Both the position numbers and the translations under genes were made by a program. Source: Pseudomonas fortuita (GTDB lineage: Bacteria; Pseudomonadota; Gammaproteobacteria; Pseudomonadales; Pseudomonadaceae). Taken from it: a DNA stretch of 64,000 nt. Shown here in pieces: positions 12,271 to 44,860 of this stretch (positions are counted from its first letter, which is position 1; the number at the start of each line of letters is the position of its first letter). Below the pieces are notes generated by a model. It made no database searches. It had not been told where the DNA came from and saw only the letters and a list, made by a program, of their open reading frames with translations. The stretch spans positions 6,247,745-6,311,744 of the forward strand of contig NZ_CP114035.2 in the NCBI RefSeq assembly GCF_026898135.2, given 5' to 3'.

Positions 12271-12298
12271 AAAAAGCCCTCCATATGGAGGGCTTTTT
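12271..12298. terminator. Bidirectional intrinsic terminator between lpd and the former glmS end
   Basis: AAAAAGCCCTCC-AT-ATGGAGGGCTTTTT type hairpin: stem GCCCTCCAT/ATGGAGGGC with an A-run on one side and a T-run on the other, able to stop transcription in both directions. The transposon was inserted into the right-hand T-run, so the hairpin stays with lpd and is now 30.7 kb from glmS. Confidence 0.85.
12294..12298. repeat. Left copy of 5-bp target-site duplication
   Basis: TTTTT immediately before the transposon end TGTTGCC, matching TTTTT at 43002-43006 immediately after the other end. Five bp is the duplication length made by Tn7-family transposases. Confidence 0.85.
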
Positions 12299-12308
12299 TG
12301 TTGCCGAT

Positions 12309-12448
12309 TAATAAACTTTGTCACAAAGTCTCTTGCATTTCGCGGCCTAGCGAGGAGGCTGCTTCTAGGGAAGCAAAAATAAAGGTTGTCACAAAGCATA
12401 ATTTTTCAAAATTTCTCGGGCTTTTTCGTTTAATAAAGGTTGTCACAG
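12309..12448. repeat. Left-end TnsB-binding repeats (three)
   Basis: Three copies of the 17-mer consensus AATAAAGGTTGTCACAA in the same orientation: 12309-12325 with CT in place of GG, 12378-12394 perfect, and 12432-12448 ending GTCACAGC. The spacing is about 69 and 54 nt, the loose arrangement typical of a Tn7 left end. Confidence 0.85.
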
Positions 12449-35203: not shown

Positions 35204-35716
35204 CTACTGGTAGACACCCAAGCGTATACGCTCAAGATAGTCCGCTACGACGCTGAACCCGAGCGACGTGTCGAGCATCTCGAAGGGTACAAACCCCAAC
35301 AAACGGCCGCACGGCCGACAAAGCCACTGCTCCGCGAGCATCTGAGAGCCAAATACCTTCGATGCAAGCTCCAGTCCTTTCGCATACTGGAACGCCACCG
35401 CGCTCTGCTGGGCATCCAGACGATGGGCCTGAGCGGGATGGCTCAGACGGTGAATGCTTCTGGTCGATCTTCCTGTGATTCGCCCGACGAGGTTACGAGC
35501 CTTGAACAGGCTCGATGACTCGACCATGCACTTCACGTCGCTGAAAAAGAATCCTGTTTGGACTAGACTCAGGAGCTCCAGCTGGCTCAACCCGTCGGGG
35601 TGGGTATGAACCAGGTGGAACGTTGGTGGAAAGGCCTGCGATTCAACAGGTGGGCGAGTGCTTGTAGGATTCACTGCATCGACCTCCTCTTGTGCGTTGG
35701 CTGCCAGACTAGCCAT
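35204..35716 (-). CDS. Xre/MbcA/ParS-like antitoxin-fold protein (DUF2384), orphan
   Basis: About 170 residues from ATG 35716 (GGGA 7 nt upstream; GTG 35755 would add 13). The C-terminal half, FQYAKGLELASKVFGSQMLAEQWLCRPCGRLLGFVPFEMLDTSLGFSVVADYLERIRLG, is the toxin-binding domain of the Xre/MbcA/ParS family; the N-terminal half has a helix-turn-helix-like SLVQTGFFFSDVKCMVESSSLF. Partners of this family are RES-domain NADases, but no RES gene is adjacent. It lies 137 nt before the extra tniQ on the opposite strand. A role as a lone regulator, or a remnant of a toxin-antitoxin pair, is inferred. Confidence 0.7.
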   Translation of the reverse strand: MASLAANAQEEVDAVNPTSTRPPVESQAFPPTFHLVHTHPDGLSQLELLSLVQTGFFFSDVKCMVESSSLFKARNLVGRITGRSTRSIHRLSHPAQAHRLDAQQSAVAFQYAKGLELASKVFGSQMLAEQWLCRPCGRLLGFVPFEMLDTSLGFSVVADYLERIRLGVYQ

Positions 35717-35853
35717 TTTGATTCCCAAGCACGTCCGGCGCCCTTCCACCTTCACAATAGCCCAATACGGTCACCAATGTGGATGCGATACCGGTGACTT
35801 CTAACTAAAATGGCATACCGCCCGTCTAGCAACGTGTACAAGCACTTCAATTA

Positions 35854-36777
35854 ATGAGAATTTTCGCACCATTACCTGGAGAATATGTCGCATCAGCGCT
35901 TAAGCGAGGCAATGAGCTTCTAGGTATTAAATCTCTAAAAACTGAAGATTTCTATATAAAACCGATACCTCGTGTTGGCTTTGGGATTAGTAAAACCTTA
36001 AGCACCGTGCAAGCAGAGTGGCGGCCGCATCAAGAATTTTATTACCCAAAACTGCTAGACGACCACAAAATTTCCGAACTAGTCCTAAACGACCACACTT
36101 TGTATCCTATGATAGCTGCGCTTGGTCGTCATCGAGCGACCGCAATCGTCACACCAAAGACTTGGCAGAAAGTTTGTCCAGATTGCGTTCTCGAAGACTT
36201 GAATAACTGCGGAAGCCCCTATATTCATTGCAGGCACGTGTTGGGTTCCGTACAGGTTTGCAGTACTCATGCTTGCACTCTAATCGAAACATGTCCGGCC
36301 TGCTCAATGCCACTGAAAAAGCACGAGATTGGTCACCTAGCCAAGTGCAGCAAGCAGGGCAAATGGTCAAGACGTCAAAAGCGAGAATTCGGATCAACCC
36401 GTCATATGTACGCCAAATTTGTCGCAGATCTTCTGGGCTACCGCGGCCCGATGATACATGATGGAACGGCAGACTTTATCGCATATGCAAGCCTCATGAT
36501 TAATCGCACTAGAGAATTCGAACGCACCGAGCTGGATATGTCCAAACTGATTTACAAAGAAATGGGGATTACGTCGAGACTTACCACGAGCAGTATCTCC
36601 ACCAGTGACAAATTTCCTATGTATGTATTTTTAGGATGTCACACCGCTGAGAATTATTTAAATTTGCTAGCGAACCAAGATGAGCAAGACCTCCTGCGAG
36701 AGAAGAAAAAATCCATATTCAATAAACTCTTGCACGAAGCCAATAGAACTAGTCCATATCGTCACGTATCTGCATGA
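35854..36777 (+). CDS. tniQ: Second TniQ/TnsD-like targeting protein, short form
   Basis: A 307-residue protein with the TniQ zinc-finger pattern: CPDC at residues 108-111, His at 125/128, and CSTH at 136-139, followed by CPAC at 147-150. This mirrors the CESC...H...CPRH arrangement of the TnsD encoded opposite. The N-terminal region lacks the usual LPRPxPDES start, and there is no long helix-turn-helix C-terminal region as in TnsD. It is convergent with tnsD, their 3' ends overlapping by 29 nt, and occupies the place of tnsE in Tn7. Base composition is visibly more AT-rich than the cargo. Presumably it recruits TnsC to a second class of target; no CRISPR partner is present. Confidence 0.78.
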   Translation: MRIFAPLPGEYVASALKRGNELLGIKSLKTEDFYIKPIPRVGFGISKTLSTVQAEWRPHQEFYYPKLLDDHKISELVLNDHTLYPMIAALGRHRATAIVTPKTWQKVCPDCVLEDLNNCGSPYIHCRHVLGSVQVCSTHACTLIETCPACSMPLKKHEIGHLAKCSKQGKWSRRQKREFGSTRHMYAKFVADLLGYRGPMIHDGTADFIAYASLMINRTREFERTELDMSKLIYKEMGITSRLTTSSISTSDKFPMYVFLGCHTAENYLNLLANQDEQDLLREKKKSIFNKLLHEANRTSPYRHVSA

Positions 36778-38227
36778 GGATTTCATCTTCGGATACGCGA
36801 GATATCCGTATTCCGGCATAACGGTAGAGAACACTCATGGCACAGTGTTCAGTCAGAGAGTATTCTCGGATTGCCCACCGGATTTTACGCAGCTGGTGGT
36901 CATGAGTAGACTCAAGCAAATCCGCCATCAACCTTATGCTCCTCGGAAAATGTTCCGGCATTTTAAGGAAAGCGTGGGCGTTTACCACAAGCCTGCATAG
37001 AGCAGCGCGGGTGACCTGCTGAGGCTTTCCGTGTACAGAAAGTAAGATCGCCCTAGCTTTAGCGAGCTCTGACGCAAGGGTGAAGTCCCTGGATTGCCAG
37101 TCGATTCGAATCTTTCGATCTCTGAGGTAGGGGTTTGCAGCAACATAGTTGACCAACCATTCCCTGTCGTGGCGGTACAACCACTGATAGCCCGGCTTGT
37201 CATGACATTTGGGGTTAGCACTGTTTGCAAAGGCTAACCGGCGGGCTTGGAGGTCATTGTCATCAGTAAGGTTATTCGGCCTATCACGACAGACCATAAC
37301 ACCAGCGGATATATCGGCCTCTGGACAGTAGGTCTTGAGGTGTTCCAGCTCCAGATCGAGGAGCCAGCAGAGGAAATAGAACTTGAAGGGCTGCACGATT
37401 CGCTCTCGTCGCCGTATGATCTGCAAAACCCAGTCACAGGACCGAACCATTTCTTCAAACTCGGCAGCGCTAGGACTGCACCGAAGTCGCCTGGTTAAGA
37501 ACTCTCTCAGCATTCCCTCTCTAATTCGACCAGACCTAATAAAACTCATCTCGTCCAAACGGGTCCTGAAAAAATTTCCAGCCTGGATCGCTTTGATCTC
37601 ATCGGGGTGGTCGAGCCCCCATAGCTGCATACGGGCAATCGCAATGGCCGCGCTGTGTTCTCCACAGTCCATAACCGGCGTTCCACCTGATTCGCCCGGT
37701 AGCAACATGCAACGCCAATCTGCCCCTTTGGGAAATCTCATCGCCTGTAGCACTTCGCTGTGGCGCGGACAGACGCAAATGCCCGAAGCTTGATGAATAC
37801 GATGCCAGTAGGCTAAGCCGCACTCCAGCATGTCCTGTCCGACGCAGCTCTCGCAATATCTAAACGAGGCGTGTTGGAGGAAACGCGACGCTGTTATGCC
37901 CAAGGCCATCTTGAGTCCTGTACCCCGATTACCTCCCATTAGAACAACGGCATCGCGGCCCTTCTGTTCATTCAAAAACGGCAAATAAAGCGGTAAAAGT
38001 GTGAAGCGATTGATCAACTCTCCTACGGGAATGGCGCCTCCCAGACGCTCAGACAGAGCCCCTAAGCAGCATGGCAAAATGGAACCACAGGTACGCGAGT
38101 AGCTACCGAAGAGCTCGTGGCTTGACACGCGGTATCCTGGATTGGCCGCTAGCTTGTGATAGCGCACGGCCAGGCTGTAGAGCGACTCATCCGGGAACGG
38201 CTGGGGGAAGAACAGAAGGTTAGCCAC
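36749..38227 (-). CDS. tnsD: Target-site selector TnsD (TniQ family)
   Basis: A 492-residue TnsD, the DNA-binding protein that recognises the end of glmS and recruits TnsC. The N-terminus FPQPFPDESLYSLAVRYHKLAANPG is the TniQ start; the zinc site is CESC (125-128), His 145, and CPRH (153-156). A long C-terminal region with WLYRHDREWLVNY and FTLASELAKARAILLSVHGKPQQVT looks like paired helix-turn-helix domains. Length is close to Tn7 TnsD. GTG 38227 is the start, with GGGAG upstream, 24 nt after tnsC. The insertion point beside glmS is consistent with its activity. Confidence 0.92.
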   Translation of the reverse strand: MANLLFFPQPFPDESLYSLAVRYHKLAANPGYRVSSHELFGSYSRTCGSILPCCLGALSERLGGAIPVGELINRFTLLPLYLPFLNEQKGRDAVVLMGGNRGTGLKMALGITASRFLQHASFRYCESCVGQDMLECGLAYWHRIHQASGICVCPRHSEVLQAMRFPKGADWRCMLLPGESGGTPVMDCGEHSAAIAIARMQLWGLDHPDEIKAIQAGNFFRTRLDEMSFIRSGRIREGMLREFLTRRLRCSPSAAEFEEMVRSCDWVLQIIRRRERIVQPFKFYFLCWLLDLELEHLKTYCPEADISAGVMVCRDRPNNLTDDNDLQARRLAFANSANPKCHDKPGYQWLYRHDREWLVNYVAANPYLRDRKIRIDWQSRDFTLASELAKARAILLSVHGKPQQVTRAALCRLVVNAHAFLKMPEHFPRSIRLMADLLESTHDHQLRKIRWAIREYSLTEHCAMSVLYRYAGIRISRVSEDEILMQIRDDMD

Positions 38228-38251: not shown

Positions 38252-39700
38252 TCACCAGGAGGAATCCCTATCCACCCAGCCGCGCTGTTCGAGCTGAGCC
38301 TGAAGGTCTTCGTCCTTCGAAAAATGCACGTTAGCTAATGCTCCGTCAGCAACCGGGACCACGGTACGACCCGTAGCCTTCGATGCCGATTTATCCTTGG
38401 CTTGAGGTGGAGGAGTGATCGCGGCCTGGGTAAGTAGCGAAAGATGAGCTCTGTCGGCCCGGCGAGCCAAGTCGTAGTTCATCATCTGGGCGATCTGGTC
38501 TTTTGTAGGCATCATGTCCTCGAAGTCAGCAATCTGAAGAGGATCACCGCTTCGTAGAGCCTCGATGGGCTTGTGTAGAAGCCTCATTTGATTGTCATAC
38601 ACCTGCTGAAGCACCGCTGGCGTAATAGCGTCGAGGCCCTCCCAAATTACATGACGCTGCGCAAGCATAAGCAGTTTCGCTAGGAAATCAGTATTGCCTT
38701 GGGCGAGATCATAGATCTTGGACAAGAGCTCCTTCGTCAGGGGGGCGCATGATGCCGTCCAGTCATAGGCCCAGAGTTGGGACACCAAGTGCTCCCAAAA
38801 CGGATCGTCTTCGCTGAATCGGTCAAAAGCGATGGGTCCCATCCCCGCCGCTCTTCGGGCGTTGCGCAGCACACCAGAAAACAGCGGGAGCATTGCGTTG
38901 GTCCCTACATACACCAGCGGAACGCCTGCATCGTTGGATAAAGTTACGAAGAAATTCAGCAACTTTTCCCGATCCTGTCCCCCCCGCGAGGAGCAAAGAT
39001 GCTGCATTTCATCAATGATCAAAGCACCAATGAAAAAGGTTTTGCACAGCTGACTGATGTGCTGGAGCATTACGCTGATGCTGTTGCCAGAACCGCCCCT
39101 GCGCGAGTATTTGTCGACTCCTAACGCAGCATCCAACGCTGAGAAGAATGCTGCACAGAAACCGCGCAACGAGCCGTCATGAGGGCACTCAATCTTTAGC
39201 CACACGACCTGGGTTTCGATGAGAATGGCGTCTTTATATCTGCTGTGGCTGATCACCTGCGGATAAAGCCTTGCGATGGAATTGAGCGCTGTGGTCTTAC
39301 CCATACCACTCAAGCCGATGAGCGTCATCGTCTCAGCGGTGGACATGAATCCGTGGCCCTTGGCCTCCGCTGAGGAAGGCAGCCGATGCCTAACAGATGA
39401 GGCCAACAGCGGATTGCGTCCCATATATCCGTAGCGAATCAGCTGGCTGAAAAGGTCTTCAAGGCGCAGGTGAATTTCGAATGGAACAACAACATCTTTC
39501 AGCCGGTTGATCCCATGACCGCGAAGCTTCGGTGGCAACGCTCGTTCGGCCTCGTCGGGCTTCGGCGGAAGGTTCCCAACGCGCCTGACCACATCTACAT
39601 CCGACAGAATTCTAGGCAAGCATTCGATCAGCGGGTTGCCATCGTACTGAGGCATGCCTGTAGGAATGTATTCTGCGGGGGAGAACGTCAAATCGTTCAT
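38252..39700 (-). CDS. tnsC: Transposition regulator ATPase TnsC
   Basis: A 482-residue AAA+ ATPase that links target selectors to the TnsAB transposase and confers target immunity. Walker A GLSGMGKTT lies at residues 129-137, Walker B ALIIDEMQHL around Asp230-Glu231, and sensor-type VYVGTNAM near residue 262. The N-terminal 120 residues and the C-terminal Lys/Asp-rich tail would contact TnsD and TnsA/B. It starts within the tnsB stop (4-nt ATGA overlap). Confidence 0.95.
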   Translation of the reverse strand: MNDLTFSPAEYIPTGMPQYDGNPLIECLPRILSDVDVVRRVGNLPPKPDEAERALPPKLRGHGINRLKDVVVPFEIHLRLEDLFSQLIRYGYMGRNPLLASSVRHRLPSSAEAKGHGFMSTAETMTLIGLSGMGKTTALNSIARLYPQVISHSRYKDAILIETQVVWLKIECPHDGSLRGFCAAFFSALDAALGVDKYSRRGGSGNSISVMLQHISQLCKTFFIGALIIDEMQHLCSSRGGQDREKLLNFFVTLSNDAGVPLVYVGTNAMLPLFSGVLRNARRAAGMGPIAFDRFSEDDPFWEHLVSQLWAYDWTASCAPLTKELLSKIYDLAQGNTDFLAKLLMLAQRHVIWEGLDAITPAVLQQVYDNQMRLLHKPIEALRSGDPLQIADFEDMMPTKDQIAQMMNYDLARRADRAHLSLLTQAAITPPPQAKDKSASKATGRTVVPVADGALANVHFSKDEDLQAQLEQRGWVDRDSSW

Positions 39701-41865
39701 GTCTCAGCCTCGCTTCCCTCGCTGACGACTAGTTTCAGAAACGCCGCGCTTCTCGCGGAACTGGGCCTGCCGGTGACTAGCTTAGAATTTTCTGCCACAG
39801 GAGGTATGTTATCCACAACGCGTAGCTGATTCAGATCAGCGGTATGGGAATCGCGCTCGGTCTGAGCTTCGGTAGCACGCTTGGCACGTTTGTCCCGCTT
39901 GAAATCTGCATTCGATTTCGGGTCACCCTGAGCGACACGTTTGGATTTGGCCCGGTCAAAGATTTCCTCTTGCCGCCCCCTTACCAGCGCCGCAGTATTA
40001 TCACTGTCATAACGGGCATCCGGCGAAACTTGGTTCAGGACATGGATCATATCAAGAACCTCCTCCATACGGAGTCCACCATATTTCTGCCGTTGCTGCG
40101 GTACAATAGTTAAAGCCTCAAAACCTGCTTCTGACTTGATCCAACAATTTTCAATAGAGTTAGGATCATAGAATACTCGAACATATTTCGTCCGCAGGTT
40201 GTGCGAGCGCTCCAACCACTCCTCGCGTAACGCTGTTTGACATGTATACTGTACGCCTTGGAAAACAATACCGCCTCGACTTATACGACACTGCTGAGAG
40301 GGCAATAGAGCGATTTTCAACTCAGCCGGCGATACTACTTTTGAATTTATAGGGCTATTATCCTTCGACCAATTCCAAATCGCTATAGGCGTTGCTTCCA
40401 CTCCGCCGGCAATCATCTCGCGATTTAAAAGGTGTGGTATCCGCAGGCTCTTATTGTGAGCCAAGACTCCTACAATAACCATTTCGGTGAACTCGTCGAT
40501 ATCCAAAATGGCATCGAGTTGGTAGTCCCTATCGCCGCGCTCCATTTTACGAGCATCCACTCCGCCTGGAACGAACTTCAAGTCGAGGTGTTCATTGATC
40601 AGACGGAAACGGCTTTCGATGATCCCTTTCCAATCAGGCCTGAAAGGAGGCAAAATTTGCACCCCAAGCCCCAAGCTTTGGGAGAGCGTTGCCCCCGCCT
40701 CGCTTAGAAGTTCAGCCCGGTCAGCCACAATTTCGACTGGCAAATGCGAGCATGGCCAGTCAGCTTCCTCAATGTCTACGTTGTATCGTTTGCAAAACTC
40801 AACCTTTGAGGTGCAAGCGTTGTATATCGCGTGTCTAGCCCCATTCCAGCTGGGCCCCTCAAGGCCCACGTGAATTCCTACAATCATTCTGGTGTAGGTA
40901 TCGACGACTACATAAAGTATCGGACGCCCAATGAGCCACAGCCTATTAACGCGATGCACTAAATAGACATCAGCGATGGTGGAATCTATCTCATATCGCT
41001 GCGTCGCGCCTATCAGGCCTTGGGATGCTGAGCCAACGATAGCCCGATGGTCTTTGTTGTACCTGATAGAACCGCCACGCACCTTGAGCTTATACAGGTC
41101 ATCGAAAAATAATTTACCGTGATATCTAAGCTGTGCAGTAGTCGGGTAACTGCCGCGTACAATATTTCCTTTCGATCCGTCAGGGAGAGTCGCTCTATAA
41201 AATTTGTTTAACATCCACTTATGTGCATCTTTCAGGGTGCCACACTTGCCGCTAGCGACTCGCCCGTAAGCCAAACGGATATGAGAGAGATGGCGCTGTT
41301 CGAGCGGGATGGCACCACCATCATTGACAACGACACCAAGATACTTACGCGGCCGACCGGGGATAATACCTGAGGACCGATCCTTTTTCTTCCCACGTCC
41401 GCCGCAAGCGCTTGTGTTCCAAAGAAACGCGTTAGGTGTCTGACCCATACTCCAATAGCGGTATAGAAGCCGGTATATCTGCTTACGCTCTACCCCTGTC
41501 TCTATGGCATGCGTCGCAACAAGCTTCCCAAAACCAGGACCAAGAATATCCAAGGCAGAGCGATCTTCTACTAAACTTCTTATAAGACTCCAATTTCGAT
41601 TTCGGCTCGCCTTTTCATTTTCACTAATTTCATCGTCGCTTCTGAGCAGATGTAAAGGAACCATTTCTGGACTTAAGACCGCGCGCCCTGAATCAATTTC
41701 GTCAATTAAAACTGACTTATCAATCTGCCACGGCTTGCCTGGATTCATATTCAGCTCAATCACGATAACAGTATCATTATTTATGCCTAAGACCCTAACT
41801 GCCTTTTTTAGTAAGCTCGGTTCTTCGCCGGGAGAAACAATGCTGTTAATTTGAAAATCAAGCAT
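39697..41865 (-). CDS. tnsB: DDE transposase TnsB
   Basis: A 722-residue retroviral-integrase-like transposase that binds the end repeats, cuts the 3' ends and joins them to target DNA. The catalytic triad reads as Asp294 in YEIDSTIADV, Asp382 in VEIVADRAELLSE and Glu417 in WKGIIESRF, with 34 residues between the last two. An N-terminal helix-turn-helix region and a C-terminal basic, TnsC-binding tail are present. It overlaps tnsA by 8 nt and tnsC by 4 nt. Confidence 0.95.
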   Translation of the reverse strand: MLDFQINSIVSPGEEPSLLKKAVRVLGINNDTVIVIELNMNPGKPWQIDKSVLIDEIDSGRAVLSPEMVPLHLLRSDDEISENEKASRNRNWSLIRSLVEDRSALDILGPGFGKLVATHAIETGVERKQIYRLLYRYWSMGQTPNAFLWNTSACGGRGKKKDRSSGIIPGRPRKYLGVVVNDGGAIPLEQRHLSHIRLAYGRVASGKCGTLKDAHKWMLNKFYRATLPDGSKGNIVRGSYPTTAQLRYHGKLFFDDLYKLKVRGGSIRYNKDHRAIVGSASQGLIGATQRYEIDSTIADVYLVHRVNRLWLIGRPILYVVVDTYTRMIVGIHVGLEGPSWNGARHAIYNACTSKVEFCKRYNVDIEEADWPCSHLPVEIVADRAELLSEAGATLSQSLGLGVQILPPFRPDWKGIIESRFRLINEHLDLKFVPGGVDARKMERGDRDYQLDAILDIDEFTEMVIVGVLAHNKSLRIPHLLNREMIAGGVEATPIAIWNWSKDNSPINSKVVSPAELKIALLPSQQCRISRGGIVFQGVQYTCQTALREEWLERSHNLRTKYVRVFYDPNSIENCWIKSEAGFEALTIVPQQRQKYGGLRMEEVLDMIHVLNQVSPDARYDSDNTAALVRGRQEEIFDRAKSKRVAQGDPKSNADFKRDKRAKRATEAQTERDSHTADLNQLRVVDNIPPVAENSKLVTGRPSSARSAAFLKLVVSEGSEAET

Positions 41866-42772
41866 GATGAGAAACCTCGGTTGGCGGAGACAAAGCCGCT
41901 GACCGATGGCTCGGCCATACGTGCAACGGCTGCGACAAGCTTATTATTTTCGAGGTAATATCAGACTCTAAACGGCCGATCCATAGCAGGTGATGGAAGA
42001 GCCGCTTCACGCTCATATAGTCAATATAGATATCACGTGACGCCTTTTCCAAAAGAGCTTTTAAGGGTATTTGATCCGTCTTTGACCCCGCGATGTATTC
42101 AAGTAAGTTCCCTATATTTTTCTCAGTCGGCAACGAGGGATGGATATTGGCATAAGTCCTGAGAACTCTGAGGTTCGCTAATCTAATCTTCGAGAGGTTT
42201 TCGTGCAGGACCAGCTTCCAGTCCACGCCCCTCATTGACCAGTATTTTTCCTCAATAGCGAGCTTTTCAGCTATTCGATTCCGCACATGAAGATCAGCCT
42301 GCTCAAATTCCTTTCTATATTTTACTGAGCGAGCAGCTAACCTCGTTTCACCAGAGGGATCCAAGAAGGTGATGAGAAAGTCCGTCGTCATAACGACAGG
42401 TATCTGCGTCCCAGGATATACAGGGTGACGACAATTTATGCTTGAGGCAATTGCTTGAGTCTCAGCCTGTGTAAGCAGGGGGTACTGCTCTCGGATATCA
42501 ATGATCGAGGCGTCGTGCTCAAGTACAGTGAGGTAATCTCGCTCCGCATTGGACAGCAGGTGATGAGTGCGGAAAATCTTAACTCCCGCAATCATATGGG
42601 AGACACCCTTTGATTTGATTTCCCACACCTTGATCCATGGTTTATAGGAATCTCTCACTCCACTTCCACGGCCTGATTTAATTTTTTTATCTATTTTTGA
42701 TTGGGTCATCAGCTGGCGGTGGGCAGCCTTGACCGGAGCTACGGGCGCAGATGCCATGTTCAAGTCGCTCAT
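41858..42772 (-). CDS. tnsA: Transposon endonuclease TnsA
   Basis: A 304-residue restriction-endonuclease-like protein that cleaves the 5' ends, giving cut-and-paste transposition with TnsB. The catalytic residues appear as Glu77 in SNAERDYL, Asp131 in VMTTDFLITF and Lys151 in ARSVKYRK, spaced much as in Tn7 TnsA (Glu63, Asp114, Lys132). The C-terminal half is the winged-helix, TnsC-contacting domain. ATG 42772 is preferred to GTG 42787; GAGTGGG lies upstream. It is the first tns gene, 162 nt from the innermost right-end repeat, reading away from glmS. Confidence 0.92.
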   Translation of the reverse strand: MSDLNMASAPVAPVKAAHRQLMTQSKIDKKIKSGRGSGVRDSYKPWIKVWEIKSKGVSHMIAGVKIFRTHHLLSNAERDYLTVLEHDASIIDIREQYPLLTQAETQAIASSINCRHPVYPGTQIPVVMTTDFLITFLDPSGETRLAARSVKYRKEFEQADLHVRNRIAEKLAIEEKYWSMRGVDWKLVLHENLSKIRLANLRVLRTYANIHPSLPTEKNIGNLLEYIAGSKTDQIPLKALLEKASRDIYIDYMSVKRLFHHLLWIGRLESDITSKIISLSQPLHVWPSHRSAALSPPTEVSHHA

Positions 42773-42933
42773 GATTGGGCGACCCACTCGAACGGAACGA
42801 GGCTGGTGTGTCGTGTAAAGAGGACATGCCAGCGAGCGGGCTCAGCCAGGACAACAGTCACAGCGGTGCGTAGAGGATTGTCACCCAAATCTCCAAGGCC
42901 TGGCTCCGGCCTGATGTGCGGTCGGGGCCAGCC

Positions 42934-42990
42934 TTGTGACAACCTTTATTACGTTGTGACAACCTTTATTGTTTTGTGACAACCTTTATT
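42934..42990. repeat. Right-end TnsB-binding repeats (three, 20-nt period)
   Basis: Three perfect copies of TTGTGACAACCTTTATT at 42934-42950, 42954-42970 and 42974-42990, separated by ACG and GTT+T-type 3-nt spacers. They are the reverse complement of the left-end repeats. The tight packing is the hallmark of a Tn7 right end and probably overlaps the tnsABCD promoter, allowing TnsB autorepression. Confidence 0.9.
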
Positions 42991-43001
42991 AATCAAAAAC
43001 A

Positions 43002-43006
43002 TTTTT
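43002..43006. repeat. Right copy of 5-bp target-site duplication
   Basis: TTTTT directly after the terminal CAAAAACA of the element. It lies 19-23 nt beyond the glmS stop codon (43025-43027), the standard Tn7 insertion distance. Confidence 0.85.
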
Positions 43007-43024: not shown

Positions 43025-44860
43025 TTACTCAACAGTCACCGACTTGGCCAGGTTACGCGGCTGATCCACGTCGGTGCCTTTGAGCACGGCCACGTAGTAC
43101 GACAGCAGTTGCAGTGGAATGGTGTACAGGATCGGCGCCAGCGCATCGGCGATGTGCGGCACCTTGATCACGTGAGTGCCTTCACCATTGGTCATGCCAG
43201 CGTGCTCGTCGGCGAACACTACCAACTCGCCACCACGGGCACGCACTTCCTGCAGGTTGGACTTCAGCTTTTCCAGCAGTTCGTTGTTCGGGGCAACGGT
43301 AACCACCGGCATGTCGTTATCCACCAATGCCAACGGGCCGTGCTTCAACTCGCCTGCCGGGTACGCTTCAGCGTGGATGTAGGAGATTTCCTTGAGCTTG
43401 AGCGCACCTTCCATCGCCACCGGGTACTGTGCACCCCGGCCGAGGAATAAGGTGTGGTGCTTGTCGGCGAACAGCTCGGCGATTTTCTCGACAGTAGCGT
43501 CCATGGCCAGGGCTTCACCCAGGCGGGTCGGCAGGCGACGCAGCTCTTCAACCAGCTCGGCTTCGACGCCCTCTTCCAGAGTACCGCGCACTTGGCCCAG
43601 GGCCAGGGTCAGCAGCATCAGCGACACCAGCTGAGTGGTGAAGGCTTTGGTCGAGGCCACACCGATTTCCGGGCCGGCCAAGGTCAGCAGAGTCAGGTCC
43701 GACTCACGCACCAGCGAGCTGATGCCCACGTTGCAGATTGCCAGGCTGCCGAGGAAGCCCAGCTCCTTGGCGTTACGCAGCGCGGCCAGGGTGTCAGCAG
43801 TTTCGCCCGACTGCGAGATGGAGACGAACAGGGTATCCGGCTGCACCACGACCTTGCGGTAACGGAATTCGCTGGCCACTTCCACCTGACACGGGATGCC
43901 AGCCAGGCTTTCCAGCCAGTAACGGGCAACCATACCGGCGTGGTAGCTGGTACCACAGGCAACGATCTGCACGTTGCGCACTTTGGCGAACAGTTCGGCG
44001 GCCTGCGGGCCGAAGGCCTGTACCAACACGTTGTCCTTGCCCAGGCGGCCTTCCAGGGTGCGCTGGACCACACTTGGCTGCTCGTGGATTTCCTTGAGCA
44101 TGAAGTGGCGATAGTTGCCTTTGTCGGCAGCTTCAGCACCTTCATGGTACTGCACGGTTTCGCGTTGAACCTTGTTGCCTTGCTGGTCCCAGATGGTGAC
44201 CTGGTCACGACGGATTTCAGCGATATCGCCTTCCTCCAGGTACATGAAGCGGTCGGTGACTTGGCGCAGCGCCAGCTGGTCGGAGGCCAGGAAGTTCTCG
44301 CCCAGGCCCAGGCCGATGACCAGCGGGCTGCCGCTGCGTGCAGCTACCAGGCGGTCAGGCTGCCCGGCGCTGATCAGTGCCAAGCCATAGGCGCCATGCA
44401 GGCGTTTCACCGCGGCTTTCAGGGCATCGGCCAGGTCCGGGATGCTCTTCAGGGTGTGGTGGATCAGGTGGACGATGACCTCGGTGTCAGTCTGCGAACT
44501 GAAGACGTAGCCCAGGCCTTTCAGCTCTTCGCGCAGCTCTTCGTGGTTTTCGATGATGCCGTTGTGCACCACAGCCACTTCATCGCCCGAGAAGTGCGGG
44601 TGGGCGTTGCCTTCGGTCGGCGCACCGTGGGTCGCCCAACGGGTGTGGGCAATACCCAGCTGACCTACCAGCGGGTCAGCGGCGACAGCAGCTTGCAACT
44701 CGCTCACCTTGCCGATACGGCGACGGCGCTCAAGTTCACCCGCCTGGGTCAGAACGGCCAGGCCGGCGCTGTCGTACCCACGATACTCAAGACGCTTGAG
44801 ACCCTCGATCAGGATGGCCGTGATATTGCGCTCGGCGACAGCACCGACGATTCCACACAT
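43025..44860 (-). CDS. glmS: Glutamine--fructose-6-phosphate aminotransferase GlmS
   Basis: A 611-residue enzyme making glucosamine-6-phosphate from fructose-6-phosphate and glutamine, the first step to UDP-GlcNAc. The catalytic Cys2 begins the glutaminase domain ([12 protein letters not shown]). Two SIS sugar-isomerase domains follow, with [14 protein letters not shown] near residue 300, [13 protein letters not shown], and [13 protein letters not shown]. The C-terminus [11 protein letters not shown] contains the DNA that TnsD reads as attTn7. It lies 3 nt after the DeoR gene. The reading frame is undamaged by the transposon. Confidence 0.98.

Follow-up and report, generated by a model that had tools for sequence, protein, structure and literature searches.

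A short TniQ protein as a probable plasmid-targeting selector of Tn7-like elements in Pseudomonas

With regard to the closest described systems, Tn7 shares with the element described here the tnsABCD genes, a 5-bp target-site duplication (TSD), attTn7 by glmS, a fifth gene distal to tnsD and two kinds of target. The fifth gene of Tn7 is tnsE, whereas here it codes for a TniQ protein (TniQ2) and faces tnsD tail to tail. Dual tniQ-tnsD elements and CASTs, as described by Faure et al. 2023 (PMC10293859) and in the Peters review (PMC11406308), also combine a long TnsD for the chromosomal site with a short TniQ of ~300 aa, but no Cas domain was found among the ORFs scanned in the present element, and its plasmid site looks sequence-defined in three of five cases. 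Faure et al. 2023 report 1,048 dual tniQ/tnsD loci and mention short TniQs without a partner, and plasmid-borne elements without tnsE are mentioned by Benler 2021. Tn6022 (TniQ+TnsF, TnsE) likewise exhibits a short TniQ, together with an additional gene that runs the other way, but it targets comM and has a TnsF operon, whereas the present element targets glmS and no TnsF-like gene lies in an operon with tniQ2, whose neighbours, an Xre-like gene and tnsD, are both on the opposite strand. Members of the Tn5053/Tn402 family are res-site hunters, which insert at the resolution sites of resolvases. Their TniQ, as here, is presumed to guide the transposon to sites on plasmids; in contrast to them, the present element has TnsA. 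Res-site hunting appears less likely for its family, as the stretches viewed around the plasmid insertions of this family contain no annotated resolvase. Dual tniQ/tnsD loci and tnsE-less plasmid insertions are thus known in general; the tniQ2 clade with its candidate plasmid site adds a variant to these, and no description of either was recognised among the open-access papers listed.

The window, which is the whole stretch of 64,000 nucleotides that was analysed, contains a complete Tn7-like element of 30.7 kb (12299-43001) at attTn7 adjoining glmS, with the 5-bp TSD TTTTT on either side. Its main features are the following.

12294..12298, unstranded: left copy of the TSD TTTTT, inside a T run, which leaves its frame uncertain by one base
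12299..12448, + strand: left end, beginning TGTTGCC..., with repeats at 12310 (2 mismatches), 12378 and 12432 (1 mismatch)
35204..35755, - strand: Xre/MbcA/ParS-type antitoxin-like gene, divergent from tniQ2
35854..36777, + strand: tniQ2, short TniQ protein, 307 aa, without C-terminal DNA-binding extension
36749..38227, - strand: tnsD, 492 aa, TniQ and TnsD Pfam matches, presumed glmS selector, 29-nt overlap with tniQ2
38252..39700, - strand: tnsC, 482 aa, AAA_22/TniB
39697..41865, - strand: tnsB, 722 aa, sub-threshold Mu-transpos_C match; in pKF715A the equivalent gene bears the annotation Mu transposase C-terminal domain protein
41858..42787, - strand: tnsA, 309 aa, Tn7_TnsA-like_N
42934..43001, - strand: right end, three 17-bp AATAAAGGTTGTCACAA repeats (42934, 42954, 42974) and terminal TGT at 43001
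43002..43006: right copy of the TSD TTTTT
43025..44860, - strand: glmS, chromosomal attachment gene, stop codon 23 bp from the right end

The end repeats AATAAAGGTTGTCACAA gave six matches with at most two mismatches against 0.03 expected, three of them at 42934-42990 (- strand) and three in the opposite direction. The features by which a Tn7-like element is recognised, namely tnsA, tnsB, tnsC, a TniQ/TnsD selector, repeated end motifs and a 5-bp TSD, are all present. The cargo comprises arsenic genes (arsB, arsC-like LMWPc, arsH-like FMN reductase), copper and other genes (cusF, cus-type efflux genes, a cusRS-like pair, multicopper oxidase, copB, cytochrome c, DUF2790) and a DUF411 gene, which was named from pKF715A.

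The original prediction described tniQ2 as encoding a 307-residue protein with a TniQ-type zinc pattern, and this agrees with the profile match to PF06527 (31 bits, curated cut-off 27) and with the ligands C108, C111, C136, H139, C147, C150, H157 and C165, which are invariant across 36 alignment rows. The predicted lack of the C-terminal DNA-binding region of TnsD is borne out as well: tniQ2 has no match to the TnsD family PF15978, which the neighbouring tnsD does match, and TniQ2 exhibits no evident DNA-binding domain. The tail-to-tail arrangement with tnsD over 29 nt is confirmed. The structure comparison with TnsD, which had been proposed, shows that the fold of TniQ2 resembles TnsD(1-318). 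TniQ2 can therefore be likened to the TnsC-binding half of TnsD without the DNA-binding tail, and would probably bind TnsC itself. The claimed absence of tnsE and cas genes also holds among the ORFs scanned, where TnsE_C (PF18623) matched neither tniQ2 nor any other ORF; a search of 199 Pseudomonas genomes with the TnsE model gave one sub-threshold match, without a positive control (the E. coli control region had no annotated tnsE).

Among 398 Pseudomonas genomes, tniQ2 matches were found in 65 at E<=1e-3 and in 24 at E<=1e-16, and 44 genomes have a TnsC match at E<=1e-60. A close TnsC (E<=1e-140) is present in 22 genomes, every one of which has a tniQ2 match at E<=4.8e-17, whereas in the other 22 TnsC-positive genomes (TnsC E 1.6e-120 to 2.9e-74) the tniQ2 match is never better than 4.3e-10. 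The two genomes by which the 24 at E<=1e-16 exceed the close-TnsC set are G107, with a tnsC fragment, and G214, with an orphan tniQ2-like ORF. The four plasmid records with TnsC of >60% identity all have tniQ2, with a matched frame free of stops. In the fetched loci holding both, tniQ2 and tnsD are convergent, with ~13 kb between them in G300; in G227 they lie on separate contigs. Between G045 and the window, identity is 96% for tnsC, 94% for tnsB, 88% for tnsA, 82% for tniQ2 and 81% for tnsD. The two selectors thus diverge fastest, but nonetheless exhibit dN/dS values of 0.24-0.28: in two pairwise comparisons the ratio was 0.245 and 0.280 for tniQ2, 0.236 and 0.246 for tnsD, and 0.059 and 0.080 for tnsC. 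Judged by these ratios, tniQ2 is under purifying selection at a TnsD-like level, and this, together with its presence in 22 of 22 close-TnsC genomes, indicates that it is no accident in the element. The AT-rich composition of tniQ2 had been taken as a sign of an origin separate from the cargo, which is a weak argument: GC is 44.8% in tniQ2 against 58.6% in the cargo, but tnsA (48.0%) and tnsB (49.0%) are low too, and as tniQ2 also tracks the tns core across the clade, it belongs with that core. Since the close clade members examined hold both tnsD and tniQ2, there is no natural knock-out separating the two.

The 33 element copies comprise 25 beside glmS, five on plasmids or a megaplasmid-like contig, two abutting other Tn7-like end repeats and one without a right end; G214, pXWY (a decayed element) and ten loci duplicating G genomes were left out of this set. 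In the 25 glmS loci, the glmS 3' end lies 36-60 nt past the last right-end repeat; they include G149, which was counted from a right-end remnant adjoining glmS. In G149 (L037) the right end is split, the remnant being at glmS and tnsA 5.7 kb away, which points to DNA entry or rearrangement. The repeats abutting the G087 and P. mandelii copies look, on our reading, like another Tn7-like end; a contig break hides the glmS context of the latter. On G087 contig 13 (L056, L138, L139), a second tnsABCD set lies on one side and end-like repeats on the other, glmS is ~26 kb away and a 5-bp ATAGC duplication is present; this is apparently an array at attTn7. A tnsA search in 392 relatives of G038 added one locus, G158, in which the right end was not found. 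No clear non-glmS chromosomal site was seen among the 33 loci, the two array cases and the copy without a right end being unassigned. No relative of the element was found in viral contigs and no right end in phage records.

The distribution that the original prediction had named as speaking against it, i.e. relatives at attTn7 alone, is not the one observed, as five copies lie elsewhere: on pKF715A, pCF39S, pNY5709-IMP, a P. veronii plasmid and G038 contig C11. At these five sites the glmS 3'-end pattern is absent from the 130 bp searched past the last right-end repeat. The only glmS of G038 is on contig C44, and the left flank of its element is ~66-70% identical to Pseudomonas megaplasmids, in an hfq-containing region. 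Four of the five insertions exhibit 5-bp duplications: CTTGC on both sides in pCF39S, with an empty site in CP104568, GTTAG in pNY5709-IMP, with an empty site in NZ_CP118678, CGAAC in the P. veronii plasmid and AGAGC in G038. The fifth, pKF715A, is without a left end, no left-end repeat being found, and plasmid DN1 provides an uninterrupted homologue of its site, with AATGC at the insertion point. The pCF39S insertion falls within an ORF annotated in the empty plasmid. As read from these junctions, the plasmid-type insertions are genuine transpositions. Rfam gave no match in the five plasmid loci.

Three of the five sites share a box at positions 54-63 outward from the right end with the TSD included (49-58 after the TSD): ATGATGGTAT in pKF715A, ATGATGTTAT in pNY5709 and ATGTTGTTAT in G038. 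In this triple, 26 of 30 pairwise letters agree, a value reached in 0 of 2000 trials with slid flanks (22 at most); at W 14 the agreement is 31 of 42 against a null maximum of 26. The box was found post hoc and the slid null covered the best triple alone. The three insertions are taken as independent, because their tniQ2 genes are diverged (99.7%, 44% and 47% identity to that of the window in pKF715A, pNY5709 and G038, respectively), their TSDs differ, and a conserved block to the left lies 40 bp away in pNY5709 but 104 bp away in G038, with equal box distance. The box is missing at positions 54-63 of the pCF39S and P. veronii sites, and the five own flanks together are not significant (p 0.26, 0.066 and 0.070 at W 8, 10 and 12, with the pCF39S flank misplaced).

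Inverted pairs of the box, spaced by 280-600 bases, are also present in DN1, P108, G063 and the pNY type, and pQBR103 contains related copies. Inverted TTCTTATGATGGTAT pairs in plasmid intergenic DNA lie at the following positions.

L135: 5949 (- strand) and 6548 (+ strand)
L191: 4417 (- strand) and 5008 (+ strand)
L237: 241 (- strand) and 829 (+ strand)

The 15-mer TTCTTATGATGGTAT occurs in one of 199 Pseudomonas genomes, as an inverted pair on one contig. In DN1 and G063 the pair is bordered outward by AATAAAAACTGTCG, and in P108 a right-end remnant lies ~2 kb from the pair, which counts against the box as the target. As we read it, the DN1 box lies upstream of a gene whose start is preceded by what looks like a ribosome-binding site, hence the name promoter-like; the box region would be a conserved divergent promoter-like region, as yet unnamed. 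The AATAAAGTCTGTC repeats beside G038 look like ends of another Tn7-like element, but DN1 contains a comparable pair facing outward where no transposase is annotated nearby, so they may belong to the plasmid region. A single-strand promoter hairpin at the own-family site was rejected, with z from -0.93 to 1.12 in six folds (both strands of pKF715A, pNY-type and G038); two folds of the DN1 flank gave -0.72 and -1.17, and those of L194, a sister-family site, -2.1 and -2.2.

The sister elements have a TnsC ~41-44% identical, and two TniQ/TnsD genes are annotated in L192, L194 and L197. Of 13 non-own right-end records, ten were used, all but H129, H130 and H135; L191 (a remnant) and L199 (end unclear) were dropped from the ten, and eight plasmid flanks were retained. 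Four of these (L192, L194, L195, L198) have CCTTCTACNNCCTCGGCC beginning at 43-45 nt from the right end, CCTTCTAC being common to the four and spotted by eye. Stretches similar to the L194 flank (E<=0.1) number 100 in 79 plasmid records, and one of them adjoins an ardR gene. The eight flanks together give p 0.043, 0.028 and 0.055 (W 8, 10 and 12), and the best triple is L196/L197/L200 (p 0.017) rather than the four with CCTTCTAC. This register test is weak; the flanks suggest that reading of a plasmid site may not be peculiar to the tniQ2 clade.

TniQ2 probably takes the place of TnsE as a plasmid-targeting selector, its gene being the fifth of the core in a Tn7-like Pseudomonas clade that yielded no tnsE. 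TnsABC with TnsD would place the element downstream of glmS, a safe reservoir, while TniQ2, with a TnsD-like core able to engage TnsC, would send TnsABC to large plasmids and hence to new hosts. In part of the clade, the plasmid target would be a conserved promoter-like region between genes, in which a ATGATGTTAT-type box stands at 54-63 bp on the right-end side and which TniQ2 may read directly or via a plasmid- or host-encoded protein bound there. The simplest account is thus the two-route life of Tn7, with a TniQ replacing TnsE. The predicted second targeting route is supported as far as a second target class goes, i.e. large plasmids with TSDs, two empty sites and the box in three of five cases; that TniQ2, rather than TnsD or TnsABC alone, would cause these insertions is an inference from the relatives being on large plasmids, several at the same kind of control region. 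Transposons may also come to be overrepresented on plasmids because copies there are selected for their spread.

It is rather unlikely that TniQ2 works like TnsE, as a selector indifferent to sequence that would read a feature of incoming or replicating plasmid DNA, the box being a favoured structure or chance. All five sites being on plasmids or a megaplasmid-like contig would fit such a selector, as would the two sites without the box and the pCF39S insertion inside an ORF, but it would not account for the equal box spacing in three diverged elements, unmatched by the nulls, or for a different motif at similar spacing in half of the sister plasmid flanks. A role of TniQ2 as a TnsD accessory or regulator, for instance in TnsC loading or titration, with the plasmid insertions as rare TnsABCD off-targets, appears improbable. 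The precise TSDs, the common non-glmS box in three of five cases and the glmS pattern, seen in 25 of the 33 loci but at none of the five plasmid-type sites, argue against off-targets, even though tniQ2 occurs with tnsD and overlaps its 3' end in the window. Two TniQ/TnsD proteins can interfere with each other, since, according to PMC10293859, deletion of TnsD in CAST I-D raised the TniQ-dependent route ~2.5-fold.

We consider it highly improbable that TniQ2 serves a further chromosomal site or a selector encoded in trans, such as CRISPR-Cas, a TnsF-like protein or the neighbouring Xre-like protein, in the way put forward for other short TniQs. The loci surveyed offer no clear chromosomal site of this kind and the scanned ORFs no Cas domain, whereas the same paper (PMC10293859) has the short TniQs of CASTs and Tn6022 acting with a partner. 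The Xre/MbcA/ParS-type protein is a possible regulator or partner of TniQ2, its gene being near tniQ2 in part of the clade, but several members, e.g. L046 to L053, gave no tblastn match to it.

In this clade, in which no tnsE was found, a short TniQ occurs together with TSD-flanked insertions in plasmids and a candidate site for them. If TniQ2 is indeed a plasmid selector, islands of this type, which here carry arsenic and copper genes, would spread on Pseudomonas plasmids by way of a defined docking site, and short TniQs would be adaptors with searchable partners. More tentatively, short core-only TniQs without Cas or TnsF might be sequence-guided plasmid selectors: this clade would gauge a fixed distance from a ATGATGTTAT-type box in a divergent promoter-like megaplasmid region, possibly through contact with a DNA-binding protein encoded by the plasmid, and the sister families would do likewise with CCTTCTACNNCCTCGGCC. 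The genome of the window has two more TniQ-domain genes, at G000:C1:10668-10994, near distant tnsB- and tnsC-like matches, and at 3678869-3679255, near a distant tnsB-like match.
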